This document shows positions 7,958-37,780 of a stretch of DNA of 64,000 bases, piece by piece. Origin of the DNA: Sialis fuliginosa (taxonomy: Eukaryota; Arthropoda; Insecta; Megaloptera; Sialidae); the NCBI GenBank assembly GCA_961205875.1, contig OY540822.1:1180501-1244500 (forward strand), written 5' to 3'. The translations under genes were made by a program, and so were the position numbers. Position 1 is the stretch's first letter, and every line of letters starts with the position of its first letter. A model generated the notes under the pieces. It saw only the letters and a program-made list of their open reading frames with translations, ran no database searches and had not been told where the DNA came from.

Positions 7958-9374
7958 CTAGGGGCTTTGCCCCTGGGCGCTTCGCGCCCCAACCCCTTAT
8001 CGCGCCACATTTGATTGATAAAATATAAATTATTTTTTTATATTAACTTTTGTCTTTTCAAATTTTTATAAAATATTTCATTGTTTTAAATGCTGATAAG
8101 TAAATAATTCTTGAATTTGGCTGTGATAATCATTTATCATTATTACATTTCCAGTAATGTTACTATTTACATATACAAATCACCCTAACCTCAGACGTAC
8201 TTGGGTCTCAGCCTTCGGCTGCGACCCTCGTATAAATCGTAATTTATACCTTTACCATTAATTTTGATAATACCTTTAAGAAATTACCAAAAAATCATTG
8301 TGAATATCAATTTCCATACTTTTTTGCATACAACATATTCAAAGAATGCGTTGAAGCAATTTTCAAGACCACACTCCTGACTGACTTATTTATTATTTTT
8401 ATAAATTTACTAAGTTCTTAACTTTTGTTCAATTTCAATCAAATCATTTTTTTTTCGTCACGATTAAAAAATAACAATTTTAAATATTTTATAATGCGAT
8501 GCCACTGACAATACTAAAAGAATTAATTAAATAAATTTTTTAAATCGCAAAAAAATTTTTCAACATATCTCATTGGTGTTTCCCCTTAATACCCCACCCC
8601 TGTCTTTATAATTATTTAGTATAAATTGTTTGATACATTACATATTTGAACTATCAAATGATTTTCAAAATTGTTTATTATACAACTCTTAAAAAAAAAC
8701 AATATAATTATTTTTTACTACGCCGCACCTGACTTAATTGTTAATAAATATTAATTTTTGGGCAAATTACATCAATCCCCAATGACTAATATAACTTTTT
8801 CATTTTAATACAATTATATGAAAAAAAACAATAAAAAATGTTCTTGTAACCACGCTCCTGACGTAATTCTTATTAAATATAAATTATTATACTAATTTTA
8901 TCAATAAACTAACCAATTTTGGTTAAAATTTTCATTTATAAACAATTTAATTGGAATGTACCAATTTGACACATTTCTGTACACGCCCCTGACGTATTTC
9001 AAATAAAAAACAGCTGTTTATGACAGGCAAATATCAAGTCCACGTGGAGTGTTTAAAATTCATACTAAATGCCCATTTTCAACCAATCACAGCGACGAAA
9101 TTCTAAGAATTCCAAAAACAAAAGCCTAGTGTCGAAACTGCTAAATTTCAAATCAAACGTCAGAAAGCAAAATTTTGTGCCAATTTTACATGTCGTTTCT
9201 CGGAAAAAAATACACAGCACAGAAACTATTCTAGTTTTGCATAAGAATATAAGCCTGTTAACTGCATCAAGGACGAATCTAAAAACAGGCAAAGTATGAA
9301 AAAAATCCAGTGAACGGTTTAACGGGCTATAAATTGATTGCTTCCGGACAGACATACAAATATATATATAAATA
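7958..9374 (-). mobile_element. Helitron, non-autonomous, copy 1 of a head-to-tail pair
   Basis: On the minus strand the 3' end is a GC-rich hairpin (GGGGC-AAA-GCCCC) followed at once by CTAG and then T in the flank, the canonical Helitron terminus. A second hairpin (GGGCGC-GAA-GCGCCC) lies just inside. The interior is a degenerate ~130-bp array carrying a CCTGAC box at about 8377, 8505, 8603, 8727, 8859 and 8991. No Rep/helicase is encoded; open frames over the far end are not protein-like. The exact 5' terminus is not resolved. Confidence 0.75.
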
Positions 9375-10554
9375 CTAGGGGCTTTGCCCCTGGGCGCTTC
9401 GCGCCCCAACCCCCTATCGCGCCACATTTAATAAAATATTGATTGATAAAATGTAAATTATTTTTTTATATTAACTTTTGTCTTATCAAATTTTCATAAA
9501 ATATTTAACTGTAATTGTTTTAAATGCTGATAAGTAAATAATTCTTGAATTTGGCGGTGATAATCATTTATCATTATTACATTTCCAGAAATGTTCCTAT
9601 TTACATGTACAAATCACCCTAACCTCAGACGTACTCGGGTCTCAGCCTTCGGCTGTGACCCTCGTATAAATCGTAATTTATACCTTTACTATTAATTTTG
9701 ATAATACCTTTAAGAAATTACCAAAAAATCATTGTGAATATCAATTTCCATATTTTTTTGCATACAACATATTCAAAGAATGCGTCTTTATAATTTTTAG
9801 TATAAATTGTTTGATACATTACATATTTGAACTATCAAATGATTTTCAAAATTGTTTATTATACAACTCTTAAAAAATAACAATTTAAAATATTTTTTAC
9901 TACGCCGCACCTGACTTAATTGTTAATAAATATTAATTTTTGGGCAAATTACATCAATCCCCAATGACTAATATATCTTTTTCATTTTATTAAAATTATA
10001 TCAAAAAAAAACAAAAAATGTTCTTGTAACCACGCTCCTGACGTAATTCTTATTAAATATTAATTATTATACTAATTTTATCAATAAACTAACCAATTTT
10101 GGTTAAAATTTTCATTTATAAACAATTTAATTGGAATGTACCAATTTGACACTTTTCTGTACACGCTCCTGACGTATTTAAAATAAAAAACAGCTGTTTA
10201 TGACAGGCAAATATCAAGTCCACGTGGAGTGTTTAAAATTCATACGAAATATCAATTTTCGACCAATCACAGCGACGAAATTCTAAGAATTCCAAAAACA
10301 AAAGCCTAGTGTCGAAACTGCTAAATTTCAAATCAAACGTCAGAAAGCAAAATTTTGTGCCAATTTTACATGTCGTTTCTCGGAAAAAAATACACAGCAC
10401 AGAAACTATTGTAGTTTTGCATAAGAATATAAGCCTGTTAACTGCATCAAGGACGAATCTAAAAACAGGCAAAGTGTGAAAAGAATCCAGTGAAAGGTTT
10501 AACGGGCTATAAATTGATTGCTACTGGACAGATATACAAATATATATATAAATA
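9375..10554 (-). mobile_element. Helitron, non-autonomous, copy 2 (internal deletion)
   Basis: It repeats copy 1 with the same CTAG-plus-hairpin end starting at 9375, directly abutting copy 1. It lacks about 250 bp of copy 1 (roughly 8350-8600). The remainder is very similar. Direct head-to-tail adjacency is a known product of rolling-circle transposition. The right limit is approximate. Confidence 0.7.
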
Positions 10555-10606
10555 TACTCACGGTTTATATAATAGAGGGATACTCACGGTTTATATAATA
10601 GAGGGA
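10555..10606. repeat. 26-bp perfect tandem duplication
   Basis: Two identical units begin TACTCACGGTTTATATAATA at 10555 and 10581, abutting the outer end of the second Helitron. They may mark an end-repair or target rearrangement at that insertion. Confidence 0.85.
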
Positions 10607-11218
10607 TAAAAATACAACAGATTAAGAAGCAGCTGGATTCTTTTTAAATATTTGATGTCGACAATTTGGTCATTTTAGCCCAATCATTTTAGATTTTTTC
10701 ACGAAAAAAACCGCCTAGTCGAAACTTTTGATGCAGTTGTGTGTCCTCGGCGGAGTAGATGATGAAATCACTTTCTTGCCCATAAATTAGTTACCGGAAG
10801 TGTCCGCCATCTTAGATTTTGTGTTTTTGTCGATTTGAACGCGTATTTTACATTTCTCGATAAAAAGGTTAATAACAATTTTATAGAGAATTCAATTCTC
10901 TACAATCTTTATACAGTCAATATTATTGAAAAAAACATTATTTATTGCTAATAATAAGCAAAAAGTGTTAAAAATTAGAAGAGTGGCGCAGTTTTTTCAA
11001 CTTTTATGCCATTTTTATTGAAAATAAGTGGCACATCTAAATGACAAAGTTGTAGAGGACTCAATTCCCAACAGCTTTTGTACAAACAAGTTTTTCGTAC
11101 GACGTGTTCATCTTATGTTGATGTACAAAATACATCACTTGAAGATGCTATGGGTTCAATGGTTTGACGGAGTCCGTCGTTGAAGGATGCAGAGCGAAGA
11201 GAGCTGCAGTGACAATAA
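10607..11218. other. Repeat-like DNA, no gene seen
   Basis: The stretch has short inverted words (GAATTCAATTCTC) and phrases such as AAGTTGTAGAGGACTCAATT that look repeat-derived. No bounded element or coding frame was established. Confidence 0.4.
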
Positions 11219-11460
11219 GGTACAGCGGAAGTTGTCTACACCAAACTGTGCCAACAGGTATCCAATTCTGGCCTGCCCGTGGTGGAAATCATACAGAACC
11301 CGTCCCGAGCTTCATTCGGAGTTGTCTACCAGCTCGCAGAATGCTATGAGTTCGTGGTACTGGAGTCTTGTGATGATCTGTGGGATGTGGACGGATGTGG
11401 AGACATGGAGGATAAATCGCAGTCAGCCAATGTAAATATTAACCTTATTGATCCAAAGTC
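11219..11460 (+). CDS. Exon-like open stretch ending at a splice donor, product unknown
   Basis: The frame is open for 80 codons without an ATG, from just after a TAA at 11216. Its composition is mixed and protein-like (segments such as VVYTKLCQQVSNSGLPVVEI and ECYEFVVLESCDDLWDVDG), more GC-rich than the surroundings. It runs to AAGTC|GTAAGT, an ideal 5' splice site at 11461. I do not recognise the family. No good polypyrimidine-AG acceptor precedes it, so it could be an internal exon with a weak acceptor, or an exon fragment captured by a mobile element. No downstream partner exon was found. Confidence 0.3.
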
Positions 11461-14230
11461 GTAAGTGCACTCAAAAAGCGCACATTGTTTCGAAAAGGTA
11501 ACCAAGTTATTATTTTAAAGGAGAAGATAAATTTCTAGTCTTTTTTTTTACTATTTTCTTTGAGTCATGTTTTAAAAGTACTTTGAAGTTAGCGTATTAG
11601 TGTAACGCGTTTTCTTTTACTATTAGTTAGGGTTATCGAGAATCACAATTTAAAAAATTTAATTATCACTTACCTTTGTAAGATTATTTTTATTTTGACC
11701 ACGACGAGAAAAAAAAAAGAAGTTTGGGAAGTAATTTTTTTTGGTCATTAATTGTTGTTGTTTGGGTCAAGTATCTTGATTTTAACTTGACGAATTTTGG
11801 CATTTTGCAGAAGCCAACATTGTTGTTAATTTGTAATTGACTTTCATTTTGTGCATAGACGAGGTTTGGTCCTTTTGATCAACCCTTGATTTAGTACACA
11901 GAGGAACTCCCTCGTACAGAGTGAGAGACTTGTTAGCTAGGGAATTTTAGATGTATCCCAACCTGGTTCACAAGTTCTCTAGGTATTTTGAAATTGATTT
12001 TATAGAGATTGTTCATAAGGATATTAAAGATTTAAAGAGATATTATTTATTGCTTAATGTTAAAGTAGTTGAAAGAAAGTTGTAATTGATGATGTGAGGT
12101 TTTCCCATTGATTTTATGTGTGATAATCGGGACGTGGAGGAAACAGAAACCCAATCCATACATGCCAGTCAGGAGAAGAAGAAGTTTACCCAAATGTATT
12201 TATGGTTGGTTGTCAATGGACTATCGACATCGGAGGACTGGTTATATTTGAGATGATGTTGCCCATGGAATATATATCATTGTTCACCCTGCGGTTGAAC
12301 AATCCCCAGGTGGCGGAGACTGTGACGTTGTGAAATTTCACTCGTCACATTTTTTTTTGAAGGCGCACCAATTAAACGTATTTGTCCAAAATCAAAATGA
12401 CAAATAACACAGGTCGCTAGATTGAAGCATTAGAACACGTGAACGCATCCATTTTGCGAGGCGCAAGCGCAGTGAATGATATATTTAAGTCACAAGTTGA
12501 TTAGACGGAAGCTAATTATTCTCGATATCGCCGCTGAAGAAGACAGACGTATTGTTTTGGGAGATGATTCCCGATAACGTCACGGAAGGAGGCAGACGTT
12601 CCGTTAAGATGGAGATGCAGGAAAATTTATAACACCAACTCAAATCCGAATCCAATTATTTGAGATGTCATCAGTAAACCTGGAATTCATCAGGACATCG
12701 AGGGAACATGTAAACGCACCAAGTATCAATTTCACACATATATTTTTTGACTCTTTATAAATTTGGGAAAACACGTTTTTTTTTTATTGTATTTTGTATG
12801 TAACATGTAACTTAATTTGCTCATATCTCTTTATCTCTATTTTAGTTCATTCCATTAATAATGTATTTTCATATTTTAAAAGCTAAGGCTATATTTCATT
12901 GTTTAAATTGTTTCTTTAAGTTTTGTGAGGTTAGGTTTAACATTGCTCATCGTGAAGGACATTGTCGAGTATTTTGTATAACATGTGCTTTATTTTGGGT
13001 TATATTGCTTAGCGGGGTTTTTTTAGATGAAAGTTAGTTTTTATTGATAATCTCTTTTGTATCGGGAAAGGTCGAATTTTGATTTGTATAGATTGTAGAT
13101 TTTGTTCTCTGTTGAACGTTGGCGTTCCGGGATTTTGTATTTGTTCTACGCTGTACAAATATTTTTGAGATATCATTTTTTATAACTTTCAGTCTAATGT
13201 TTGTGAAGTGTTTGTTTCGAGGCAATTAATCTTTTGTTGTTTATATTTTTCGTACACAGTTATACAAGGTATCTCTCTATATTTAATTCTGTTTTCATTT
13301 ATTCTTCTTGCATTGTTTTGAGCCTTCACGTTGAATGTCAAGTCACATTCGTTTTGTACTTTTATTTAAAAAGCTATTGCTAGCATTTAAGATTATTTCC
13401 ATTGACGTGTTATATCAATTTGAATTTTAATATTACCGATAATACAGATCTCTATCTAGTAATTATTTTTTTGAAGTTTGTCTATGGCGACTGTTTTAAG
13501 TGACGTTTACTTGAAATTTGTTCATGCTGTAAGTGAGTACAGCCTTTTTTTATATGCTGTATTGTCGATAATTAATTATATATTTCCTGTTCACGTGTGA
13601 GTGTAACAGTGTTACTTTACGTTTTGAATTTATTTATATTATTTGAGTTTTGACATTTCTCGTACAGAAACTTACCAGTTCAGAACTTTGTCATATTAAT
13701 CAAGTCAACATTTCAATTTTATACTTCAACCAAAGACTAGAATATAATTATTGTAACTTATGAATGTGAAGAAAATTTATATATCTCTTATTGTGTGAAG
13801 ATTTTATTCTACGAAAGTCAATAAATTGTTATTATGAATTTTTTTTTATATTTTCTTTATCACGTTTTAGTTTTCAGATACGTATATAATATTAAGACAT
13901 GTGTTTATAAGGGAATAGCATCCTCTTAGTCCAGGATTCACAAACACTGGAATTCCCTGGAATACTACTCAGGCCTAGTATGTTTTAAAACTGTGCCATT
14001 CTGCTATATACATCCTTGGTGACTCATAAGGGACTTTATCCTTAAGTATAAATTTTATTTATTTAATTTTATATTTCATTTATTTACATTACGCAATTTT
14101 GTATTTGTTATTATTCGCGGTTGTTGGTCATTGTCTGTTAAAAACTGATCAACTGGTAGCAGAGAATTTGTCTCGCTACGTGTCACCAAAGCCTTTACAT
14201 ATTCCTATTGAATTTTTTTTTATTCAGCTA
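11461..14230. other. Unassigned, possibly intronic or mobile-element DNA
   Basis: Long AT-rich stretch following the donor at 11461. At 12100-12660 composition is more balanced (for example TCACCCTGCGGTTGAACAAT), which hints at decayed element or exon material, but no frame holds. No bounded transposon was recognised. Confidence 0.4.
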
Positions 14231-14458
14231 AGGTAAAGGCACCAGTGGTGGCCACTATAAGAGCAAGTTTTCAGTTTTTTTGGATTAATGAGCTTGTATT
14301 TTGTAATTTTCATGAACTCGTTACTAATAAAACAAGTAATTCTTTATTTAATCAATTTCATTACCAAAATCCGCAAATATAGTTTTTTTCTTTAAATTAT
14401 AGCCTTTTATACAATAAATAAATAAGTAAATAGATTACATTTTTAATTAGAGCAGGGT

Positions 14459-15330
14459 CGTATTAAGTAAAATTTATAGTTAATGTTTAATAATAAATCA
14501 TAAGTAATTAAATACTAAGCAATGGAACTTTTGAAATCGATGTAATTAAACCGATAATGTTATTGAATATTTAAGCCAGGCACGTATTAAGAAGAATTTA
14601 CAATTAGTATTTTCTCATAAAATTTGTTTAAAAATGAAAATGTTAACCAATGGAAGTTGTTATATCTATGTAATTAAACTTATAATGTATATTGAATATT
14701 TAAGCCAGGCACGTATTAAATAGAATTTAAAATTAATTTTTCCAATAAAAACTGTATAAAACGAAACCATTTAGTAATAAGTTATGGAATTAATGTAGTT
14801 AATACGAAAATGTATATATGAATATTTTAGTCAGGTACGTATTAAGAAGAATTCATAATTAATATTTTCCAATAAAAACTATATAAAAATGAAACAATTA
14901 AGCAATGACAGTTATGACATTGATGTAGTTAAACTGAAAATGTATATATGAATATTTTAGTCAGCTACGTATTAAGAACAATTTATAATTAGAAAATTTT
15001 CTGATAAAAATTCTATAAAAATGAAAATATTAAGTAATGGTAGTTATGACTTTGATGTAACTAAACCAATAATGCATATTGTATATTTAAGCCAGGCACG
15101 TATTAAAAAGAATTTATAATTAATATTTTCTAATAAAAATTGTATAAAAATGAAACCGTTATAGCATTGATGTAGTTAAACCAAAAATGTATATATTAAT
15201 ATTTTAGTCAGGCACGTATTAAGAAAAATTTATAATGAATATTTTTTCATAAAAATTATATAAACATGAACATGTTTACCATCCGCAGTTGTTATATTGT
15301 GATTTTTGAGTCAGGGGCGTATAAAGAAAA
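14459..15330 (+). repeat. Left ~127-bp satellite of the AGGTAA element
   Basis: The box CAGGCACGTATTAA and close variants recur with CGTATTAA near 14459, 14583, 14712, 14838, 14968, 15099 and 15215, plus a degenerate copy near 15318. Units are separated by ~103-131 bp of AT-rich, partly conserved sequence. All copies point the same way. Confidence 0.85.
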
Positions 15331-16345
15331 ATATACAATTAATATTATCTAATATAATTTGTGCAGATGTTTTAGTAAAACACATGTGTGATAGTTACAC
15401 AATTAAATTTATTTTTTTAATTAACAAATTATAAATCACAAATAATAAGCAAGTATTTAACTAACAATTAATTATAAAAATTTATAAATTATAAATTTAT
15501 AGTAAGCAAGTTAATTAACAGTCGTCTTTATGTTAACCACACTTTCTTCTGATGATGAATTCACATCACATATGTTATGCCAGTATCTTATAATGAATAA
15601 AAAGCAAAAAATATACTAAAAATTATATTTCAACTAGCTCATTGGCCCGGTGTTACTCGGGGATATTAATTTAATTAAACATAAAGTAATCATGCCCACC
15701 TGACATGCCCACCCAACATGCTAACAACACACGGTTCACCACGAATTGTTTTTTCCGGCTTCATGAAATTTACCCAAAATATCCACAAATTATACACCTA
15801 AAGTTAACCTATCCATTAGTGAAAACCGGAATAAAATCCATTCAGTAGTTATTGAAAAAATCGTTTAAAATTATGTTTTCTCCCAGGAAACACCAGATCT
15901 TATCTTAGAATTTGTATGAAAATCAAAAATAAATAAATAGGTTACCTTTCTTGGAAGTTCTTTATTGTAATTTATAAAAATCCGTTTATTTATATTGTAA
16001 AATGCATATTTTTTCATTCAAACTCATGGTGGAAAGATAATTTGTAAGTATCATGATTCAAACTGACATTCACATATTTATAGTAATTGTTTTCAGCGTC
16101 TTATATCCCATAGCTACTGTGTTTTTCTATAAATGACAGTTCTATGCTCTGACATCATAGAAACAAAAGACGCTGTGCAAAAGATTCTTTTTCATCTTTT
16201 GATGTTAAATTTGAGATTTTCATAAAATATTATTAGCCACGATACTGCTCGTAAAAATTATCTAACTATTGGTGAAAACCGTATTGAAATCTGTTCAGTA
16301 ATTCCCGAGTCTATAAGACACACACAAACGAACATTCATTTTTAT

Positions 16346-16578
16346 GTTATTATTGATATTTCCACAGACTGGTATATATGTTAAATCAACTTCCCGGTAT
16401 GTACTGTGATTATTTATTTCTGGACAACGTTTATAATCTTGACATGTAAACAGTTTTGTTCGCAGAATTATTTTTTGTATTTACATTGTATTTTTTGGTA
16501 CCTGATGATGGGCCGTAATAACGGCCCGAAACGTTGTCCAGAAATAAATAATCACAGTACATACCGGGAAGTTGATTT
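16346..16578 (+). mobile_element. Penelope-like terminal-repeat insertion with 15-bp target duplication
   Basis: The insert is flanked by perfect direct repeats AACATTCATTTTTAT (16331-16345 and 16579-16593). It contains ~50-bp inverted arms (around ATTTATTTCTGGACAACGT and its complement), with a hammerhead core just inside the right arm. Inverted partial terminal repeats and ribozymes are typical of Penelope-like elements. It is nested in the Helitron, hence younger. No coding sequence survives. Confidence 0.8.
16500..16534 (+). ncRNA. Hammerhead ribozyme core
   Basis: CTGATGA (16502-16508) is followed by a perfect 6-bp stem II, GGGCCG-TAATAA-CGGCCC, and GAAAC: every invariant core block of a hammerhead. 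It sits in a Penelope-like terminal repeat, where such ribozymes are known. Stem III flanks were not fully traced. Confidence 0.75.
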
Positions 16579-17309
16579 AACATTCATTTTTATATATATA
16601 GATATATTAAACACATTCAATTCAAAATTTTAAATGACATTTAAAAATTTAAAAAATAATCAATAAAATATAATGAATCCATAGTTACGACATTTGCAAT
16701 TAATTTAGTAGATGCTTAAAGCGCATTATATGTAAACGTATTTTGTTTATTTTCTCCTCTTTAACATATCTTTTTCAATAATCAGACACGGGTTCATGGT
16801 TATCAATTAACCAAAGTATTTAAAAAAAATTAAAAAAATCTAATATCGGTTTTCGTTTTGATACTTTTTTACATCAAAACTTTTCTTTTCCTTTTTTTTC
16901 ATTTTTTTTAAATCTGAAATTTGAACCTTACATTATATCGCCCAAGGAATATAAAAAAAATAATAAAAAAATTGTAACTTTTTTTTGAAAAATTGGGGGC
17001 TCCTTGTTACCCCATTTATAAACTTATTCAAAAAAGGCCCACTAGTTGTTATTTTTTACCCTCAAGGAATGTATATACCAAATTTCAAGGTTCTCCGATG
17101 AGTGGAAATGGTCAACAAAATTATTGTGAGTCAGTCAGTGAGTGAGGACACTTCGTTATATATAGTAGATATCTATCTTAAAATAATATTATTTCTACTG
17201 TTAATAAGTATAAAAAATTATACAACGCGAGCGAAGCGGGTACGTCCAACATAACTATCATTAATTTTTCTTTTTTTGTATTTTTTACGATAAAAATCAT
17301 TTGTAAATT

Positions 17310-17715
17310 TTCGTTAATACAGGCCTGCCTAAACTGCACAGTTCTATATTTTATTTAAATTATATCAACATAACTGTCTAAGTTTTTCTTTAAATTTTTG
17401 TATATTTTAAATATAAAATATTATAAATTTTCGTTAATACGGGCCTGCTCTAAATTTTCAATATTATAATTTATTCAAATACTGTCAATATAACAACTAT
17501 TTTTTTACCTTATAACTATAGAATATAGTTTTTTAGAAAATATTATTTAAATTACTTCCTTAATACGGATCTGCCTTAATTATTCAAAATTTTTTTGTAC
17601 ATTAAACAATTCAAACAAACATAACAATTATCTTAAATTTGACTTTATGTTTTTATATATTTTTGCATAAAGTAATATCAATCGTAAATTTTCCTTAATA
17701 CTTACCTGACCTAAT
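17310..17715 (+). repeat. Right ~125-bp satellite of the AGGTAA element (mirrored)
   Basis: The box occurs as TTAATACAGGCCTGCC, TTAATACGGGCCTGCT, TTAATACGGATCTGCC and TTAATACTTACCTGAC at about 17314, 17434, 17560 and 17695. This is the reverse orientation of the left array, so the two arrays face each other across the element. Confidence 0.8.
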
Positions 17716-18272
17716 TTGAATATGTTAATTGCAAATTTATCTTTAGATTTATAATTCACTATATATTAATAATTTCAACCCGCCTGCTTAACATTTTTCA
17801 CACCTAGTAATGAAAACTACATTTGAAAACATCGCTGCCACTACTGGGTATTAGTGAAAAATGAATACCCAGTAATGGTTATTGAACACAAAACCCCTCC
17901 TAGAACAATAAAATTAAATTTAGTGGTGACCTTATCTTTAAGATATGTTCAAGAATGAAACATATTAATTTCACTTCAAAAAAAAAAATTTAAGCAGCAT
18001 AAAAATCACTAATAATTGAACTCGCTCCACTAATCATTTACATAAGAAAATACACACTACGTAAATTTCGACTGATCCGCGATGTTCAAATGTCCACCAT
18101 TTTGACACCTATTGGCCGATTGTCATCAAATCACGCTGTAAGACAGTTAAATATACATAGATTAATATTCAGAAATGATTATAATCAAATATCATCACAT
18201 ATTTGAAATTCAGGACATTTAATTAAACATTTGCCATTACTGGGGTGCTTGCCAAGACCGGTGCCGTTACCT

Positions 18273-20306: not shown

Positions 20307-20341
20307 TATAAATAACTATCGGAATTTAATATATTGTCAGT
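20307..20341 (+). promoter_or_regulatory. Candidate TATA plus initiator core promoter
   Basis: TATAAATA (20307-20314) is followed by TCAGT (20337-20341). That places the initiator A 32 bases after the first T of the TATA box, the arthropod spacing. It immediately precedes the coding-like fragment at 20375-20614. Chance occurrence in AT-rich DNA cannot be excluded. Confidence 0.4.
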
Positions 20342-20374
20342 CAACGTAAAACAAGAAGTTACTTACTTACTTAT

Positions 20375-21194: not shown

Positions 21195-21486
21195 TACAGT
21201 CGCCTGTAGAACTCGTCTGGCACCCTAAAGGCTAGAATCGCTTACAACAGATTCCAAATTTAAAGACAAACATCATCGGTTATCTTTTTCTATCAAGTTT
21301 AATATATTTCAAAACTAAAATTCGGAATATCAAATATTTATTGCCACAAAATTTACGTATACAATTTTCAATAGATTTACATAATAATTTAATTGCACAA
21401 ATATATATGAGTACCTATTATAAACGAAGAGTAGTTCTTTATCTAGCAAATGAATTTCAAAATATCTGTCTTTATTTGGGGTTCCG

Positions 21487-21867
21487 GTCAATTTATCGTA
21501 AACAATTTATCGTAAACAGTTTATCGTACAACAGTTTATCGTAAAACAATTTACCGAACGAACAATTTATCGTATGAACAATTTACCGTAAGAACAATTT
21601 ATCGTAAAACAATTTATCGTAAGAACAATTTATCGTATGGACAATTTTCCGTATGAACAATTTATCGTAAAACAATTTATCGTAAGAACAATTTATCGTA
21701 TGGACAATTTACCGTATGAACAATTTATCGTAAAACAATTTATCGTAAAACAATTTATCGTAGAACAATTTATCGTAAAACAATTTATCGTAAAACAATT
21801 TATCGTAAAACAATTTATCGTAGAGCAATTTATCGTAAAACAATTTATCGTAAAACAATTTATGTAT
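21487..21867 (+). repeat. Foldback left minisatellite (CAATTTATCGTAAAA units)
   Basis: About 21 tandem 15-20-bp units of CAATTTATCGTA with variable linkers (AAA, AGAA, TGAA, TGGA). The repeat happens to be open in one frame and spells KQFIV/EQFIV repeats. That is a by-product of the repeat length, not a gene. Confidence 0.9.
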
Positions 21868-22132
21868 TATTATTGTCACAGACTCCACTGGACTTTCTTA
21901 TACGTATTAAGGTCAAATCAATTATGAAAATATTATATAATATATTATTATATAGAAACCTTGTTTTCTAATTTTATCAATTAAAAAAAATGTACAGATG
22001 CGTATTAAGTTAGATTTTAGGCCCAAATTATTAAAATAATAAATACACATTACATATAAATAATATATATAAACCTTATTTATTATTTAATCAATTAAAA
22101 AAAATGTACAGAAGCGTATTGAGTAATTATTG

Positions 22133-23356
22133 AGACCCGTGTATTAAACTAATTAATAAACTCACAACTCGCCCCCTGTCACAGATGGAGGGTTGTAACT
22201 GGTCTCATTGGATCCGGCGGGAAAAATACTATAGGATTCTAGGGGAATGGGGGGCAAAACAACCCTCTATCTAGCACAGGAGTCGAGATATTTACGATTT
22301 TCTGTAATGAATACCATAAGTAGCGAAACAGAAAAATTCAATATTTACAATAAATACTGCATATAAACATAAGATATTATTATTTAATTTAATAGAATGA
22401 AATAAAAAGTTCAGGCATGTATTAAGTGATATTTTAGGCCCGTATTGTTAAAACAACAAATACACATATGTACATAGAAACCTTGTTTATAATTTAGTCA
22501 GTTAAAAATAATTGTACAGAAGCGTATTGAGTGATTTTTGAGACCCGTGTATTAATCTAATTAATAAACTCACAACTCGCCCCCTGTCACAGATGGAGGG
22601 TTGTAACTGGTCTCATTGGATCCGGCGGGAAAAATACTATAGGATTCTAGGGGAATGGGGGGCAAAACAACCCTCTATCTAGCACAGGAGTCGAGATATT
22701 TACGATTTTCTGTAATGAATACCATAAGTAGCGAAACAGAAAAATTCAATATTTACAATAAATACTGCATATAAACATAAGATATTATTATTTAATTTAA
22801 TAGAATGAAATAAAAAGTTCAGGCATGTATTAAGTGATATTTTAGGCCCGTATTGTTAAAACAACAAATACACATATGTATATAGAAACCTTGTTTATAA
22901 TTTAGTCAGTTAAAAATAATTGTACAGAAGCGTATTGAGTGATTTTTGAGACCCGTGTATTAAACTAATTAATAAACTCACAAATCGCCCCCTGTCACAG
23001 ATGGAGGGTTGTAACTGGTCTCATTGGATCCGGCGGGAAAAATACTATAGGATTCTAGGGGAATGGGGGGCAAAACAACCCTCTATCTAGCACAGGAGTC
23101 GAGATATTTACGATTTTCTGTAATGAATACCATAAGTAGCGAAACAGAAAAATTCAATATTTACAATAAATACTGCATATAAACATAAGATATTATTATT
23201 TAATTTAATAGAATGAAATAAAAAGTTCAGGCATGTATTAAGTGATATTTTAGGCCCGTATTGTTAAAACAACAAATACACATATATTAAATAGAAACCT
23301 TGTTTATAATTTAGTCAATTAAAAATAATTGTACAGAACCTTATTGAGTGATTTTT
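22133..23356 (+). repeat. Three 408-bp tandem units, Foldback left arm
   Basis: Units start AGACCCGTGTATTAA at 22133, 22541 and 22949 (period 408) and are nearly identical. The last is slightly truncated. Each contains ATTGGATCCGGCGGGAAAAA, CGAGATATTTACGATTTTCT and boxes of the CGTATTRAG type (CAGGCATGTATTAAG, CAGAAGCGTATTGAG). Confidence 0.9.
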
Positions 23357-23689
23357 GAGGCCCGTGTTTAATTAATAAACTCGCCTCTGTCACGTGATGA
23401 AAGAATGTAATATAACATTGTTTTACATTGAACTGTTTACCATAAATTGAACGCAAATCGATTAAATAATATTCAATGTTTCTAAATAGTAGGTATACGT
23501 GAATTTGTTATTTTAAGAATACAGGCCTATATTATCACTTGATATACATCTGTACATTTTTAAAATTTATTTTTTTAGTAATAATATCTAAGGTATATTA
23601 TTATTGTGTAAGAGGTGGATATTGATTTTGTTTCTTTTTCACTATTTATTCATAATAGAAAATCGTAATTAACACGTCACCTATACGAG
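23357..23689. other. Central single-copy spacer of the Foldback element
   Basis: AT-rich, non-repeated sequence between the inverted arms. It holds no coding frame, so no transposase is carried. Confidence 0.7.
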
Positions 23690-24955
23690 TAAGGGGGTTG
23701 TTTTTAATTAGTTTAATACACGGGACTCAAAAATCACTCAATACGCTTCTGTACAATTATTTTTAACTGACTAAATTATAAACAAGGTTTCTATATACAT
23801 ATGTGTATTTGTTGTTTTAACAATACGGGCCTAAAATATCACTTAATACATGCCTGAACTTTTTATTTCATTCTATTAAATTAAATAATAATATCTTATG
23901 TTTATATGCAGTATTTATTGTAAATATTGAATTTTTCTGTTTCGCTACTTATGGTATTCATTACAGAAAATCGTAAATATCTCGACTCCTGTGCTAGATA
24001 GAGGGTTGTTTTGCCCCCCATTCCTCTAGAATCCTATAGTATTTTTCCCGCCGGATCCAATGAGACCAGTTACAACCCTCCATCTGTGACAGGGGGTGAT
24101 TTGTGAGTTTTTTAATTAGTTTAATACACGGGCCTCAAAAATCACTCAATACGCTTCTGTATAATTATTTTTAACTGACTAAATTATAAACAAGGTTTCT
24201 ATATACATATGTGTATTTGTTGTTTTAACAATACGGGCCTAAAATATCACTTAATACATGCCTGAACTTTGTATTTCATTCTATTAAATTACATAATAAT
24301 ATCTTATGTTTATATGCAGTATTTATTGTAAATATTGAATTTTTCTGTTTCGCTACTTATGGTATTCATTACAGAAAATCGTAAATATCTCGACTCCTGT
24401 GCTAGATAGAGGGTTGTTTTGCCCCCCATTCCCCTAGAATCCTATAGTATTTTTCCCGCCGGATCCAATGAGACCAGTTACAACCCTCCATCTGTGACAG
24501 GGGGCGATTTGTGAGTTTATTAATTAGTTTAATACACGGGTCTCAAAAATCACTCAATACGCTTCTGTACAATTATTTTTAACTGACTAAATTATAAACA
24601 AGGTTTCTATATACATATGTGTATTTGTTGTTTTAACAATACGGGCCTAAAATATCACTTAATACATGCCTGAACTTTTTATTTCATTCTATTAAATTAA
24701 ATAATAATATCTTATGTTTATATGCAGTATTTATTGTAAATATTGAGTTTTTCTGTTTCGCTACTTATGGTATTCATTACAGAAAATCGTAAATATCTCG
24801 ACTCCTGTGCTAGATAGAGGGTTGTTTTGCCCCCCATTCCCCTAGAATCCTATAGTATTTTTCCCGCCGGATCCAATGAGACCAGTTACAACCCTCCATC
24901 TGTGACAAGGGGCGAGTTGTGAGTTTATTAATTAGTTTAATACACGGGTCTCAAT
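23690..24955 (-). repeat. Three 408-bp tandem units, Foldback right arm
   Basis: Reverse complements of the left-arm units, with only scattered substitutions, showing the arms are recent or homogenised copies. Confidence 0.9.
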
Positions 24956-25225
24956 AATTACTCAATACGCTTCTGTACATTTTTTTTAATTGTTTAAATA
25001 ATAAATAAGGTTTATATATATTATTTATATGTAATGTGTATTTATTATTTTAATAATTTGGGCCTAAAATCTAACTTAATACGCATCTGTACATTTTTTT
25101 TAATTGATAAAATTAGAAAACAAGGTTTCTATATAATAATATATTATATAATATTTTCATAATTGATTTGACCTTAATACGTATAAGAAAGTCCAGTGGA
25201 GTCTGTGACAATAATAATACATAAA

Positions 25226-25597
25226 TTGTTTTACGATAAATTGTTTTACGATAAATTGCTCTACGATAAATTGTTTTACGATAAATTGTTTTACGATAAA
25301 TTGTTTTACGATAAATTGTTTTACGATAAATTGTTCTACGATAAATTGTTTTACGATAAATTGTTCATACGGTAAATTGTCCATACGATAAATTGTTCTT
25401 ACGATAAATTGTTTTACGATAAATTGTTCTTACGGTAAATTGTCCATACGATAAATTGTTCTTACGATAAATTGTTTTACGATAAATTGTTCTTACGGTA
25501 AATTGTTCATACGATAAATTGTTCGTTCGGTAAATTGTTTTACGATGAACTGTTTACGATAAACTGTTTTACGATAAACTGTTTACGATAAATTGAC
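25226..25597 (-). repeat. Foldback right minisatellite
   Basis: Tandem TACGATAAATTG units, the inverted counterpart of the left minisatellite. The open frame across it is again a repeat artefact. Confidence 0.9.
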
Positions 25598-25771
25598 CGC
25601 AAATCCTTTATTTGATACATGGAGAAATGATTTAAATATTATAATAATCAAATGGGAGGAGCCTACTAAGTTTGTGATAAACGAAAATGAATACAAATGC
25701 AAGACCATTAATGCAGGAGACTGTACCTACAGTTTTTAACTATATACAATTTTTATTATTTCAGAATTAAA

Positions 25772-26239: not shown

Positions 26240-26979
26240 ATATTACCACTACCACCACAGTTGTTTTATGTATATATGTATAAATAATATTAATATGTAT
26301 TTTAGTATAAATAAATAATAACAAAAATAAATTCTTTTTTAATTTATTCAGTACCTTGTTTCTAATTATAATTGAAATGGTTAGACTTACCCCAACAATT
26401 GATAGTTTTGGGTTTACACAAAACATATTTAAACTTGACTGATTCATACACATATACACAACACATAACAGCATATACACTACACCTGTTTGAAATTTTA
26501 GTTTTCTACAACATCATCATTAATTAATCACTTGATCCATGTTTTAATCACAGATATATATCCACACATTCAAACACACATACACACACATATATAAAAA
26601 CTTTAGTATTCCGTAACACCATTATATGATATTATATTCGATATACAAAAGTAAGTATACGATATATCCAATTATATAATAATAAAATATTGACTGGGTT
26701 TTATAAGTTGTACGAATTAAATTCAAATATTATTGAGTTTGTGTTATGTACATATAATATAATCATACTCGGAATTAAATTTATCTCCGTCTACATGGTA
26801 ACATTACCGTATCTAGAACGTAGTATCGAGTTTTGTCTTTCAATTTTAATAAATTATTATTATTATAAGCTTCTTTTTTTATTTTATTTTAGATCCTCGA
26901 TATATTGGTGTTTATATAAGTTGATATAATTCAACTATAATGAAATTTTATTTTATAATTATAAAGTTAGGTAGTTATT
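26240..26979. other. 3' flank of the 155-aa gene, AT-rich spacer
   Basis: It holds AATAAA signals (from 26310), short ACACA/TATACA runs at 26450-26600, and a TTTTATTTTAG acceptor-like site near 26892. No bounded element was seen. Confidence 0.5.
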
Positions 26980-27503
26980 ATGGATCAGACACTTGGTTCA
27001 TTGTTGTCGGAATATAGCGTATCACCTATCTTAAAATATCAAGTGCGGTTATTCTATAAAGATTTGAAAATGTGTATTTCTTGGAATGATTACAATACTG
27101 TGAAGGAATTTTTATCAGATCGCTCTGGAATAATAGATGAAAGTTTTATAATATATGCTTCTCATTGGAACACCTCTAGAGATATTTTTGTTTTATTATA
27201 TGAGTCTTTACAACTGAAAGAATCCGACAAGATTTTCAAAATACTGTGTAGTTGTTTGAAAATTACATTGTTGTATGCTAGTCCCGAGATCTTAAAAATT
27301 ATTTTCAACATACATAGCTAGTGAAAATAATGTAACGTTAATATTTGACCCTGTTAAGAACGATAAAGATAAGATTGCTTGGAAATGGATTCTGGAAAAT
27401 ATTGAAAATTCTAAAAACAACCGAAGAATTGGAATACGATGCTGTGGTGATTCCTCGCCATGGCCTAGTGATTATATACATGGCTGATTCTCAAAAAAAG
27501 TAG
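26980..27503 (+). pseudogene. Orphan gene with two apparent frameshifts
   Basis: An ATG frame of 113 codons (start MDQTLGSLLSEYSVSPILKY) has protein-like composition and ends at 27321. Coding character continues without a break in a second frame (ASENNVTLIFDPVKNDKDKI, then AWKWILENIEN). It then moves to a third (KTTEELEYDAVVIPRHGLVI) ending in TAG at 27503. Two indels, near 27300 and 27405, would explain this. The helical heptad-like spacing around CISWNDYNTVKEFL recalls degenerate ankyrin-type repeats, but I cannot assign a family. An AG acceptor ends nine bases before ATGGA, as for the ankyrin gene at 54681. Confidence 0.45.
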
Positions 27504-28281
27504 AAAAATGATTTTGTTTTATTGGGTTTTTTTTTTTAATAATGTACAATTTCTTTCGTAAATATAATAAAACATAGGGTAATTTTCTGAAGGGTTATAG
27601 TGGTCCCCAATATTTTTGACTTTAAAGGGGGTTAAAACAAAAATTCAAAAGTGAGGATATGATAGCTTAGTGTATTAGTGAGGGAATGATCACTTTGTGA
27701 GGGAATGACGAGCGAAAATGTAAATTTGGATAATAATACTTTAAAACAATTTCAACACTCAGCCCTTTCGCCATATTTATTTTTTAATGTCAGTATTGCC
27801 ACATTATAAAAACAATAACACTGCGTTCAGATAGATTTAAAATTACGGTCTAATTTCACTGTTATAGAAATTGTGAGGGAATGATTCGTTTTTTAAGGAC
27901 ATACTTGTAAATTTATTTTCTGTTTTTTTCTGTTTGTGTTTTACTTACTGTTGTACATTTTTAAATAGAGAATATTGTTATAAATGAATAAATAATAAGT
28001 TATTAAACACATTCTAGAAAACTTTTCGAAACAAATTAGAAATGTATTTAAATTTGGTGGTTGGGACACAGTGAGGGAATGATTTTTGAGGTATAAATTT
28101 TAATATATTTTGACAATTTATAATAACTGAAATAAAATTAATATACAATTTGGTACACCTAGTGATGTAGTTTCATAAGAGAATCTCCTTAACTTGAATT
28201 TTCGATCTCGTTTTATAGAAATCAAAAAGGACAACAATTTAGATTTTTTTTGAGAATTAGCCACGTATGTATGTGATTATA
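27504..28281. other. AT-rich spacer with four GTGAGGGAATGA words
   Basis: GTGAGGGAATGA recurs near 27680, 27698, 27867 and 28070 in otherwise AT-rich DNA. No gene was recognised. Confidence 0.5.
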
Positions 28282-28852
28282 CACTCACGGAAAAAATTAA
28301 AGGACCACTTTTATTTTTCGAAAAAATTGCTCATTTTCTAAGTAATGCCGATAGGTCAAATATGATCCTTTTTTTACTTATAGGATATGAAAATTGAAGG
28401 AAATTATATCATCTTTTCGAATTTGGGGGTATTTTTGTGTTTTTAAACTTATTTTTGTGACAAAATCGCGGTTTAATAAAAAATAAAAAAATTAATTTTT
28501 TTTCGCAATTTTGATAGTTACCCACGGGGATGTTAAAATTTTTTTTTTTAATTTCAAGGCAACCATTTTGTAGGAAATTTTTTCAGCTTTAAATCACTTC
28601 TTCAAATTTGTTTTATAATTTTTTGTTGTCGCGATATTTGAGTTTGAATGAAAAAAGTACCAAAAAGTTTTAAACGACCATAAAGGGCCTAATGTTGGTC
28701 GCACAGAAAAGAAAAAAAAGAATATTAAAGCTTAAATAATCACCTATTATCTAGTAGAATTTAAAAAGTGTTTAATTGTAACTTAACCCTTCAAATACGA
28801 AAAACAAAACAATGTTCGAATTTAAATAATCCTGTAAAAATAACCTTTTTTA

Positions 28853-29849
28853 GGTTTCCGTAGAAAACTAGGAAACCTTATAGTTTCGCCATGTCCGTCC
28901 GTCCGTCCGTCCGCCCGTCCTCAAAAATTTTAAGCCGATTAAGATGAAATTTGGTATACAGACGAAGACTGATAACCCAAAAACAGAAATGATAATATTT
29001 TTGAAAAAAAAATTTTTTGGATCCCCTTTCCATAGACTGAAAAGTATTTTAAAAAAAAAATTTTCACTTAATCCATTACGTGGGGAGTCTTTAGATAGGT
29101 CTCCTAAAATGCAATAAAAAATGCAATATGACATTTTGATTTTAACCCTTCAATCACGATATAATTGCGTTCAAAGTCGTAATAAAAGCGTCCCCCCCAC
29201 CCTAATTTCTAAACTATCAATTTAAAAAATCTGAAAAAATTCATGAATGTAGCCTTTAATTAGTACTTCCACTGAAAATTATAACGAATACTGTCAAAAT
29301 TATTTTGGCCCCCACTCCCATTGACTGAAAAATGAACTCACAATTTTTTGTTCACATATCCCATTGAATGTGCTGTCATTGGATAGGTATCCTAAAATGC
29401 AACAAAAAATGTTAAATGATCTTTCGATTTTAACCCTTCAGTCACGATATATTTGCATTTAAATGTCGTTATCAGAGCGTCCCCCCCACCCTAATTTCTA
29501 AACTATCTATTCAAAAAATCTGAAAAAAATTCAGAATATAGCTTTGAGTTAGTACTTTCACTGAAAATTATAACGAACACTGTCAAAATTATTTTGGACC
29601 CCCTCCCATAGACTGAAAATTGTTCTCAAATTTTTTTTCACTTAACCCATTGAGTGTGGTATCTTTAGATAGGTCTCCTAAAATGCAACAAAAAATGTTA
29701 TATAACCTTTTGATTTTAACCCTTCAGTCACGATATATTTGCATTTAAATGTCGTTATCAGAGCGTCCGTTGAAATAATTCTTGTTTATAAATCGTAATG
29801 ACTACGGAAACCTATCATGTGCGTGCCCAACACGCACTTGGCCATTTTA
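28853..29849 (+). mobile_element. Helentron-like non-autonomous element (TTTCCGTAG family)
   Basis: It starts GGTTTCCGTAG. The complement CTACGGAAACC lies ~40 bp before the 3' end, followed by a perfect hairpin GTGCGTG-CCCAA-CACGCAC and TTGGCCATTTTA. Subterminal inverted repeat plus 3' hairpin is the Helentron/HINE layout. The empty site in the right arm of the host palindrome (near 31045) reads CCTTTTTTAATCATAG, consistent with insertion in a T-run or a TTTA duplication. Internally it has three diverged copies of a ~275-bp unit containing CCCCCCCACCCTAATTTCTA or close variants. Confidence 0.75.
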
Positions 29850-30661
29850 TTTAATCATAGATCTAATGTTTAAAATGTATCCAGAAATTAAGTTCTATCA
29901 AAGAATATGAAAATTAGACTTATTACCTTCTATGTGAACAAAGATTCCAGAAAAAATCTTTTAATTTGGCTGAGAAATTGCATTTTGAATTTTTTGTATA
30001 CGTTTAGGACTTGACCGTACTTTATATAACAAGTTTTTCTTTGGGATTTTTTTTTCGAAAAAAAAATCAATTTTTGAGAAAAATTGTAAGAGGGAGAAAG
30101 TTTTTCTTTCTTGTTAAAGAATATTAATAATTTTTTTCAGATGTTTTATATCAATATTGTGGGATCAAGTTTATTTTTAGCTGAGAAAATTTACTACATC
30201 CCAGTGTGAAATTTCTATAACTGCAAATAAATATTTAATTTTTTTTAGTCAACTACGTGTGGACAAAAAAAAATTCAGTTACTTTGAACGAATAAGCGTG
30301 AAATTTCAATGAAAATTAATTTAACTGTCGAAATCAATAGTCTTTCATATGTACGTTGTTGAACGTTTTTTCATGACCACACGCAGTTGACTAAAAATTG
30401 AAATTTTTTGCAAAAATGGAAGTTTCACACGGGGATGTATGATTTTTTTTTTAATTCCATGATATTCATCATTTAGTAAATTTTCTCAGCTTTAAAATGC
30501 TTCTTAAATAATGATTGTCACATTTTTTGATGCCGAAATATTCAAGTTTGAATGAAAAAGTACCTTATTAAAAATAAACTTGATCCCACAATATTGATAT
30601 AAAACATCTGAAAAAAATTATGAATATTCTTTAACAAGAAAGAAAAACTTTTTCCCTCTTA

Positions 30662-30800
30662 TGCCGTGTTCAGACCGAAAAAACAAAACAACAACATCGT
30701 GTCTTTTTGACAAAAGTGCAATAAAGCCTATGCATTTTTAAATACGACGTGTTTTCAAACACCGTGTTGCTGTTTTGTTTTCTTTGGTGTGAACACCGCA
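30662..30800. mobile_element. 139-bp MITE, TTA duplication (Harbinger-like)
   Basis: Termini TGCCGTGTTCAGACC and GGTGTGAACACCGCA are flanked by TTA on both sides. The opposite arm of the host palindrome (near 30084) carries the uninterrupted CTCTTACAATTTTTC. A three-base TTA duplication is typical of PIF/Harbinger MITEs; the family is inferred from that. Confidence 0.8.
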
Positions 30801-31597
30801 TTACAATTTTTCTCAAAAATTGAATGTTTTTTGAAAAAAAAAAATCACAAAGAAAAACTTGTTATAAAGAGTACGGTCAAGTCCTAAACGTATACAAAAA
30901 ATTCAAAATGCAATTTCTTAGCCAAATTAAAAGATTTCTACTGAAATCTTTGTTCACATAGAAGGTAATAAGTATAATTTTCATATTATTTGATAGAACT
31001 TAATTTCTGGATACATTTTAAACATTAGGTCTATGATTAAAAAAGGTTATTTTTACAGGGTTTTTTAAATTCGAACATTGTTTTGTTTTTCGTGTTTGAA
31101 GGGTTAAGTTAAAATAATTTTTTTTTAAATGCTACTAAACAATAGGTGATTATTTAAGCTTTAATATTATTTTTTTTTATTTTCTGTGCGACCAACATTA
31201 GGCCATTTAAAACTTTTTGGTACTTATTTCATTCAAACTCGAATATCGCGACACCAAAAAATTATAAAACATATTTGAAAAAGCGTTTTAAAGCGGAAAA
31301 AATTTCCTACCAAACGGTTATCTTGAAATTTTAGAAAAAAAATTTTACATCCCCGTGGGCATCTTTCAAAATTGCAAAAAAAATCAATTTTTTTATTTTT
31401 TATTAAACCGCGATTTGGTCACAAAAATAAGTTTAATAACACAAAAATACCCCTAAAATCGAAAAGATAATAAAATTTCCTTCAATTTTCATATCCTATA
31501 AGTAAAAAAACGATCATATTTGACCTATCGGCATTACTTTGAAAATGAGCAATTTTTTCGAAAAATAAAAGTGGTCCTTTAATTTTTTCCGTGAGTG

Positions 31598-32349
31598 TAT
31601 TATTATTTTCATTACATTTGTATGTTCCACATATGTTCTAAATAGTGTTATTTAAAAATATTTTAATTTATGTCATTTATAACAATAAAATACTTCTTTT
31701 GTTTTTATAGCTAACAGATGAATTCAAAATAAAATGTTTTCGTATTATCAACATAAATATGAATTTTTTGGCTAAAATTCTAAAATAACAGTCAATAATT
31801 GGAAATATGCTTTTAAACAAATGTATTAATATATGTAGTTTATGTAGTATATAAACCAATTTGACTTTCTTATAAGCATTTAAAGTGAATAATTCATAAT
31901 TTGATTTTGATCGTTCATTGCATCTAGATTTACAATATTTTTGACTCAGACTGTACGTGCCATACATCTTTAATTGAACATATATGTAACACCGGGTCCA
32001 ATGCGCTAGACCAAAGCAATTTTTTTTTTTTTGGTTTTAAAAGGCAATTTTTTTAATTGTTATGCCTTATATATTTTGAGTTTTTCGTTGTGCATATTCA
32101 AAGAATTTTTGTTAGCAAACTTGTTTTGGCTCATCACCAAAAAAAATCATAGATTTCATAGCGGGAGAGGGCCCGTTGAAAATCCTGGACTAGTGGCCCG
32201 GTTGTGTGTGAGGGGAGGGGGGGAGGGTAATTTAATTCTACAATTATTACACAGAACCACAAATTAATTTTCTAGTACTCGCTGCCAGGACCAGCTGTTT
32301 CGAATATCATATCAAGGTTTTGATCTAAAGTTTAAAATCAAAATTTATA
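31598..32349. other. Spacer with a GC-rich patch, no gene seen
   Basis: A GC-rich stretch at 32160-32230 (GAGAGGGCCCGTTGAAAATC, GGGGAGGGGGGGAGGG) stands out from the AT-rich background. No coding or RNA assignment can be supported. Confidence 0.45.
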
Positions 32350-34931
32350 AGGTAACGGCACCGGTCTTGGCAAGCACCCCAGTAATGGCAAATGTTTAAT
32401 TAAATGTCCTGAATTTGAAATATGTGATGATATTTGATTATAATCATTTCTGAATATTAATCTATGTATATTTAACTGTCTTACAGCGTGATTTGATGAC
32501 AATCGGCCAATAGGTGTCAAAATGGTGGACATTTAAACATCGCGGATCAGTCGAAATTTACGTAGTGTGTATTTTCTTATGTAAATGATTAGTGGAGCGA
32601 GTTTGATTATTAGTGATTTTTATGCTGCTTAAATTTTTTTTTTGAAGTGAAATTAATATGTTTCATTCTTGAACATATCTTAAAGATAAGGTCACCACTA
32701 AATTTAATTTTATTGTTCTAGGAGGGGTTTTGTGTTCAATAACCATTACTGGGTATTCATTTTTCACTAATACCCAGTAGTGGCAGCGATGTTTTCAAAT
32801 GTAGTTTTCATTACTAGGTGTGAAAAATGTTAAGCAGGCGGGTTGAAATTATTAATATATAGTGAATTATAATTCTAAAGATTAATTTGCAATTAACATA
32901 TTCAAATTAGGTCAGGTAAGTATTAAGGAAAATTTACGATTGATATTATTTTATGCAAAAATATATAAAAACATAAAGTCTTTAAGGTAATTGTTATGTT
33001 TGTTTGAATTGTTTAATGTACAAAAAAATATTGAATAATTAAGGCAGATCCGTATTAAGGAAGTAATTTAAATAATATTTTCTAAAAACTATATTCTATA
33101 GTTATAAGGTATGTTATATTGACATTATTTGAACAAATTATAATATGGAAAGTTTAGAGCAGGCCCGTATTAACGAAAATGTATAATATTTTATATTTAA
33201 AATATACAAAAATTTAAAGAAAAACTTAGACAGTTATGTTGATATAATTTAAATAAAATATAGAACTGTGCAGTTTAGGCAGGCCTGTATTAACGAAAAT
33301 TTACAAATGATTTTTATCGTAAAAAATACAAAAAAAGAAAAATTAATGATAGTTATGTTGGACGTACCCGCTTCGCTCGCGTTGTATAATTTTTTATACT
33401 TATTAACAGTAGAAATAATATTATTTTAAGATAGATATTGAAATATAATTTTTTTTATATTTTTTGCTTTTTATTCATTATAAGATACTGGCATAACATA
33501 TGTGATGTGAATTCATCATCAGAAGAAAGTGTGGTTAACATAAAGACGACTTTTAATTAACTTGCTTACTATAAATTTATAATTTATAAATTTTTATAAT
33601 TAATTGTTAGTTAAATACTTGCTTATTATTTGTGATTTATAATTTGTTAATTAAAAAAATAAATTTAATTGTGTAACTATCACACATGTGTTTTACTAAA
33701 GCATCTGCACAAATTATATTAGATAATATTAATTGTTATTTTTCTTAATACGCCCCTGACTCAAAAATCACAATATAACAACTGCGGATGGTAAACATGT
33801 TCATGTTTATATAATTTTTATGAAAAAATATTCATTATAAATTTTTCTTAATACGTGCCTGACTAAAATATTAATATATACATTTTTGGTTTAACTACAT
33901 CAATGCTATAACGGTTTCATTTTTATACAATTTTTATTAGAAAATATTAATTATAAATTCTTTTTAATACGTGCCTGGCTTAAATATACAATATGCATTA
34001 TTGGTTTAGTACATTTTTATCAGAAAATTTTCTAATTATAAATTGTTCTTAATACGTAGCTGACTAAAATATTCATATATACATTTTCAGTTTAACTACA
34101 TCAATGTCATAACTGTCATTGCTTAATTGTTTCATTTTTATATAGTTTTTATTGGAAAATATTAATTATGAATTCTTCTTAATACGTACCTGACTAAAAT
34201 ATTCATATATACATTTTCGTATTAACTACATTAATTCCATAACTTATTACTAAATGGTTTCGTTTTATACAGTTTTTATTGGAAAAATTAATTTTAAATT
34301 CTATTTAATACGTGCCTGGCTTAAATATTCAATATACATTATAAGTTTAATTACATAGATATAACAACTTCCATTGGTTAACATTTTCATTTTTAAACAA
34401 ATTTTATGAGAAAATACTAATTGTAAATTCTTCTTAATACGTGCCTGGCTTAAATATTCAATAACATTATCGGTTTAATTACATCGATATCAAAAGTTCC
34501 ATTGCTTAGTATTTAATTACTTATGATTTATTATTAAATATTAACTATAAATTTTACTTAATACGACCCTGCTCTAATTAAAAATGTAATCTATTTACTT
34601 ATTTATTTATTGTATGACATTTCATGATATTTACCTTTAGTTTAAAAAAAAAAATTTTATAACAAAGTACTAGAAATATCATTTTGCCATCACTGGGTTG
34701 CCATAACTGGTTTTACCTCTGCCACTACTGGAGAAAAAACATGATCAAAATAAAAGGCTATAATTTAAAGAAAAAAACTATATTTGCGGATTTTGGTAAT
34801 GAAATTGATTAAATAAAGAGTTACTTGTTTTATTAGTAACATGAGTTCATGAAAATTACAAAAAACAAGCTCATTAATCCAAAAAAACTGAAAACTTGCT
34901 CTTATAGTGGCCACCACTGGTGCCTTTACCT
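32350..34931 (-). mobile_element. AGGTAA-family TIR element, copy 2 (inverted)
   Basis: Reverse-complement copy of 14231-18272 lacking the Helitron. It starts AGGTAACGGCACCGGTCTTG and is flanked by TA on both sides. Compared with copy 1 it has ~137 extra bases near 34610-34740 that include GCCACTACTGG and GCCATAACTGG words. Both mirrored satellites are present (boxes at 32920-33300 and 33730-34590). No transposase. Confidence 0.8.
33730..34595 (-). repeat. ~127-bp satellite in AGGTAA copy 2
   Basis: Seven or eight TTAATACGTGCCTGACT-type boxes in one orientation, matching the array at 14459-15330 in complement. It is shortened by about one unit near 34000. Confidence 0.85.
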
Positions 34932-37427: not shown

Positions 37428-37780
37428 TATTTTTAGACATATAGTTCGATATTATCAAAATTAATATTCTAAAATGGCCAAAAGACTTCCATTTAAATGC
37501 TTCATTTTTGTGCAGTAACTTTACCATCACATGGATTTAAACATTTTTTTGACGTTAATTTGAATTCAGAATATTAGAAACCGTAGGTAAAGGTGAATGA
37601 AAATGTAAAAAAGTAATATAAAATAATTTGGGTTGCTAAAACGATAAATAACATGATATTTTGTTAAGTATAAAAGGTATTGAAAATGAGTATCTTTGAA
37701 CATTATCTCAAAATTCTATTCATATTCACGTAAAATCGTCAAATGCTCGTTTTATCGACTTATCCATTGTTGTTTTGCAG

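Follow-up and report, generated by a model that had tools for sequence, protein, structure and literature searches.

The Tetris Foldback transposon of Drosophila virilis is reportedly a case in which a Foldback element is linked with tandem repeats. In Crassostrea gigas, the non-autonomous Helentrons named Cg_HINE carry satellite-like central repeats, mostly of no more than five monomers, in constant orientation within each element (PMC7492417). Helentrons and HINEs are characterised by sub-terminal inverted repeats and by insertion into T-rich DNA (PMC4067079). Satellites captured by miniature inverted-repeat transposable elements (MITEs), and the same array type in different Helitrons, are covered in the compared portion of a review (PMC12628747). 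In Meloidogyne, short motifs are described that are conserved in otherwise different satellites, one of them like the CENP-B box (PMC3694981). Here we analyse a 64,000-bp stretch of the Sialis fuliginosa genome (392 Mb in 20 contigs), hereafter the window (C14:1180501-1244500), in which a 16-base word, TTAATACGNGCCTGAC (the box), is repeated in the arms of two elements with terminal inverted repeats (TIRs), with weakly matching counterparts in two tandem Helitron copies and related words in a Foldback element. Our results make it probable that the Helitron and the TIR class both carry a single family of satellite-like repeats, whose monomer measures about 128 bp, and that its box was formerly under constraint.

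Results and discussion

TIR element A (14231..18271, plus strand) has TA-flanked ends (AGGTAAAGG.../...CCGTTACCT) and holds eight boxes in its left arm (14451..15325, minus strand; units of 103-131 bp) and four in its right arm (17314..17710, plus strand). The boxes point outward in both arms, so that the arrays are indeed mirrored about the centre of the element, as the initial annotation of this DNA had stated. Element B (32351..34931, minus strand) is a copy of A in inverted orientation. It lacks the nested insertion that A carries at 15634..17168 (minus strand) and aligns continuously across the insertion point; its right-arm array lies at 32911..33293 (minus strand, four boxes) and its left-arm array at 33745..34573 (plus strand, eight boxes, one unit being cut down to 85 bp). 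The four TIR arrays are thus two copies of one pair. Both elements show AGGTAA...TTACCT termini, with TA flanks in most copies (read by eye), and within neither of them is there an open reading frame (ORF) of 150 amino acids.

The two Helitron copies stand in tandem at 7958..9374 (copy 1) and 9375..10610 (copy 2), both on the minus strand. At the 3' (left) end, upstream of the boxes, the hairpin GGGCGCTTCGCGCCC adjoins CTAG at 7958, a combination that occurs on neither strand of eight arbitrary loci (48 kb). As the right edge of copy 1 we took, by eye, the CTAG of copy 2; the right edge of copy 2 is approximate and was likewise chosen by eye. Helitrons have a 5' TC end and insert between A and T, and no clear TC was seen by eye at the right ends. 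The left parts of the copies are 92.5% identical over 427 bp. Since 7958-10610 contains no ORF of 150 amino acids and no Rep/helicase, while the Helitron Rep domain PF14214 occurs elsewhere in the genome, we regard both copies as non-autonomous. Matches to PF14214 are concentrated on contigs C3, C9, C12, C13 and C14 (27 of 30), with 10 on C14, the contig of the window itself.

The 16-base word had been reported to recur in Helitron copy 1, which is not borne out: the six positions named match it at only 9, 8, 8, 10, 11 and 11 of 16 bases, and a core like CGCnCCTGAC is common to the last three only, by eye. What supports the Helitron boxes is their phase and the DNA between them, not the word itself. 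A profile was built from six left-arm segments of the TIR element with the boxes removed. It matched Helitron sequence in the window at 8747-8815, 8872-8966, 9928-9961 and 10063-10148, each match being individually weak (E 0.32, 4.6, 4.2 and 7.9), and found two Helitron segments each in the loci L012 (E 0.0016 and 0.81) and L024 (E 0.0044 and 0.0082). Seven of these eight matches have a word of 10/16 or better no more than 12 bases from the expected place on both sides, and the eighth has one on one side; at random places a word this good turns up in about 5% of cases. When box-less units were aligned to the TIR-arm units, five Helitron units scored above shuffled sequence (H1_2, z = 2.55; H1_3, 6.72; H1_4, 4.32; H2_0, 5.55; H2_1, 4.7), in contrast to their reverse complements (z = -1.16 to 1.62), i.e. 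the similarity is strand-specific. All five score higher than any of 9424 windows drawn from the eight arbitrary loci, and the three right-arm TIR units likewise surpass them all. The stretch of copy 1 homologous to the TIR units is 8589..8993 (plus strand; boxes at 8589, 8718, 8847 and 8978), and the repeat units of copy 2 lie at 9900..10173 (plus strand; boxes at 9900, 10027 and 10158).

The earlier statement that inter-box DNA differs among the classes is therefore wrong for TIR elements and Helitrons, whose box-less segments are homologous, on one strand and in phase. The same homology supports, for these two classes, the earlier suggestion of a satellite captured by several transposons, and it implies that the box is common to them mainly by common descent. 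The alternative, that unrelated elements independently gained a box recognised by one host DNA-binding protein, becomes unnecessary here, although no part of the units is better conserved than the box, as such recruitment would have it; since recent copies also show no constraint on the box (see below), we consider convergent recruitment quite unlikely. The spacing, first given as roughly 125-135 bp, is 124, 95, 129, 129 and 131 bp in Helitron copy 1 and 85-135 bp in the TIR arrays, with 15 of 20 spacings at 116-132 bp. Its description as nucleosome-scale is doubtful, since a nucleosome core takes up 147 bp and the boxes lie closer together than that. No array in the window or in the loci read exceeds eight boxes, which falls short of the long homogeneous arrays that classical satellites form in heterochromatin.

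Among diverged units, the box is the best-conserved segment. For all 12 boxes of element A, identity is 0.80 inside the box and 0.58 elsewhere (rank 1 of 114 sliding windows); for the 10 units of A bounded by two boxes it is 0.82 versus 0.64 (rank 1 of 114), for element A combined with the complete set of six copy-1 Helitron units it is 0.66 versus 0.54 (rank 1 of 115), and for all 19 boxes of L015, L018 and L021 it is 0.88 versus 0.68 (rank 1 of 113). Information measured relative to base composition also puts the box first in each of these sets. Earlier runs had used chosen units (six of eight left-arm, three of four right-arm and three of six Helitron copy-1 units and, in another run, 13 of the 19 boxes from the last three loci). 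There the box ranked 1 of 112 for nine units; for the six left-arm units alone it ranked 5 of 114 by identity and 1 by information, and with three Helitron units added 4 by identity and 2 by information, of 112. In the rerun with no unit or box dropped it still came first. Gapped pairwise identity was discarded because shuffled DNA also reached 0.78. By the earlier account, an ordinary satellite without extra conservation of the box would have spoken against its reading; the units do form one repeat family, yet the box is clearly better conserved among them than its surroundings. The CENP-B box is a 17-bp motif with essential bases, which our box, compared by eye, seems not to fit.

Recently dispersed copies behave differently from diverged units. 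Among eight recent element copies (106 of 128 box columns used), the pairwise difference per site is 0.0142 for the box, 0.0141 for inter-box DNA and 0.0127 for the end region. The lack of constraint on the box among these copies means that the constraint lies in the past, or is confined to elements that are still active. It also fits a neutral passenger, in which the conservation among units would be an artefact of cutting them at the box and of a box richer in G and C. The units were in fact cut at boxes chosen by the reader, which anchors these in the alignment and favours them. Against this stands the first rank of the box, with no unit dropped, by identity as well as by composition-corrected information, in element A, in A plus copy 1 and in the three loci, and so we hold a purely neutral explanation to be rather unlikely.

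The box is far commoner than expected by chance. With up to three mismatches it has 32 matches in the window, compared with a chance mean of 1.06 and a maximum of 4 in 100 shuffles; 24 of these lie in the four arrays of the TIR arms, which agrees with the earlier report of the word in the AGGTAA elements, six are 14/16 words in the Foldback arms and two (18725 and 20714) lie outside any array. Genome-wide, the exact box occurs 253 times and its reversed word, used as a control, not once, and for TTAATACGTGCCTGAC with up to two mismatches the counts are 3061 (1554 + 1507) and 74, respectively. The eight arbitrary 6-kb loci contain no box match at three or fewer mismatches, and matches of 11/16 or better in this arbitrary DNA (48 kb) are near shuffle level (37 versus 26 expected). 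In the collection of papers searched, six box and TIR words of 12-15 letters returned only single shared 12-letter words, in papers on unrelated subjects.

The genomic setting of the exact boxes was read at twenty loci, which are hand-spaced picks on C1 and C2 from 100 listed of the 253 places. The full array is present in six of them (L010, L011, L013, L014, L016 and L025), and a related array with TIR-end matches in four more (L015, L018, L021 and L023). A gapped-pattern search for box pairs whose starts lie 109-139 bases from each other found 458 places (261 + 197) versus 0 in the controls. Among the matches listed (letters of 80 out of 100), the pairs are nearly all unit types of one TIR array, by eye, L017 being the exception; for this listed part, the genome-wide spacing is thus largely the copying of one array.

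We also considered whether isolated boxes mark the 5' ends of Helitrons. CTAG plus hairpin was found within 4 kb of an isolated box, on the expected side, at one of nine loci only (L006; L004 and L022 were left out), and the idea is not upheld. The word AAAATCGGTTCAGTAGTTTT, found near isolated boxes, has 2692 matches genome-wide (up to one mismatch) versus 0 in the controls, and may resemble insect Helitron ends. A variant of AAAATCGGTTCAGTAGTTTT with three mismatches also lies inside the nested insertion of element A, near its other end, which weakens the 5'-end idea further. Over 412 bp, the right part of this insertion shows 94.7% identity with the upstream end that two Rep-encoding Helitron copies have in common. 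Within the insertion, an inverted repeat with CTGATGA...GAAAC lies at 16380-16580, a possible hammerhead ribozyme core of the type found in Penelope-like elements; it has no Rfam match at gathering score, and no Rfam family reached that score in window positions 8000-35000.

The position of the boxes in the arms, their outward orientation and their conservation among units would all suit a sub-terminal site needed by the TIR transposase or the Helitron Rep protein, and transposase binding had been among the earlier suggestions. However, seven stretches paired by the TIR motif contain no box of 13/16 or better (window 51421-52139, two in L006, and one each in L008, L012, L013 and L027), whereas eight paired stretches do contain boxes (seven hold 10 and L023 holds 3); pairing was by end motif with up to two substitutions, so that an individual pair may combine the ends of two different copies. 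The upstream non-coding region of the Rep-encoding Helitron, up to where its two copies diverge, likewise has no match above 11/16; these copies agree at 99.6-99.9% in and around the ORF, and at 97.1% across the final 413 bp of the common upstream part. Neither transposase thus seems to need the box, and we regard a transposase or Rep binding site as very improbable. The Rep ORF of the autonomous Helitron has one 14/16 box match (L034:3121-3136, also in L035, L036 and L037), with an expectation of about 0.0007 per 3.6 kb derived from the reversed-word control count. A coding origin of the box was rejected: the DNA flanking the match shows no alignment to the monomer (long flanks, z = -0.19 and 0.21; short flanks, z = 0.14 and 1.66), for which reason we take the match to be a coincidence in coding DNA.

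The Foldback element (21485..25599) has arms that are 98.3% identical over 1.9 kb. Its box-like words point outward, a 14/16 word occurring once per 408-bp unit. In the arm at 24517-25215 the outward strand contains nine words of 10/16 or better (best 14/16), compared with 1.3 in shuffles (none of 500 reaches nine), and the other strand no word above 9/16; two of these words recur exactly with the 408-bp unit, and another two are variant forms of the same places. Five segments following such words do not align with TIR or Helitron units (z = -2.56 to 0.97). Related box forms embedded in different inter-box DNA, as first described for these arms, are therefore present, and the six 14/16 words mentioned above belong to them. 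The words are in excess, while their descent from the monomer is not established, and this element speaks for an independent gain of the box. A broader version, in which the box is a site for a host chromatin or replication factor exploited by several classes (by Helitrons and TIR elements via the monomer, by the Foldback element through independent gain) and selection acted in founder elements and not in dead copies, appears unlikely to us. Part of the 408-bp unit (22067-25020) also resembles, by eye, a tandem unit at 2365-2623.

Several points weigh against a single repeat family shared by Helitrons and TIR elements, or narrow it. Four of the nine Helitron segments fail to align (H1_0, z = 1.06; H1_1, -0.83; H1_5, 0.05; H2_2, 0.77), which reduces the homologous stretch to about three units, and because the two Helitron copies resemble each other so closely, the five positive comparisons amount to about three independent ones. 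At ten of the twenty loci read, between one and six boxes lie outside any recognised TIR array (among these loci is L022, which additionally has Foldback-type boxes). The box-like words of the Foldback element, being without inter-box homology, are not explained by the capture of whole monomers. Finally, the direction of transfer, from Helitron to TIR element, is inferred.

Under the shared-family reading, two non-autonomous families would carry the monomer: a Helitron family, in its interior, and one TIR family with TA flanks and AGGTAA ends, in both arms. The repeat would have passed between these carriers, most likely out of a Helitron-type source into the TIR element, which would then have spread a fixed array of 8 + 4 boxes across the genome. 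The box may once have been held by the binding of some protein while the arrays were being built, a host factor being likelier than a transposase, and the present-day copies would be passengers. The in-phase homology places one short satellite in a rolling-circle and a cut-and-paste element of the same genome. It also sets two time scales apart, with the box conserved during the divergence of the units and free to vary in present copies. With a single motif, the upkeep of satellite boxes by protein binding becomes testable. Should the Foldback element have gained the box on its own, this would amount to convergent exploitation of a host factor.

Elsewhere in the window, an open frame with a GIY-YIG domain (PF01541, E 4.1e-5) lies at 48713-49135 (minus strand). 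A C2H2 zinc-finger ORF of 502 amino acids, built of an 84-bp tandem repeat, lies at 37775-39283 (plus strand) and has at least 120 relatives in many animals (23-46% identity). An ankyrin-like ORF of 1346 amino acids (by eye) occupies 54681-58721 (plus strand).

Comparison with known systems

The case is unusual in detail but of a kind already known. Like the Foldback transposon of D. virilis named at the outset, the Foldback element here is tied to tandem repeats. As in Cg_HINE, short arrays of constant orientation are dispersed by rolling-circle elements; unlike there, where monomers average 140-180 bp, the monomer is about 128 bp long and is also found in both arms of a TIR element (PMC7492417). 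The miDNA4 element of Xenopus, as presented in the compared part of the review, is likewise a non-autonomous TIR element that carries and spreads a captured tandem repeat, whereas the arrays described here are mirrored in both arms and their repeat is common to Helitrons (PMC12628747). With the Meloidogyne satellites, our arrays have in common a short motif that is kept as the rest of the monomer diverges, the difference being that the carriers here are transposons (PMC3694981). In the compared portions of the literature on such arrays, a monomer common to Helitrons and to both arms of a TIR element is not described.

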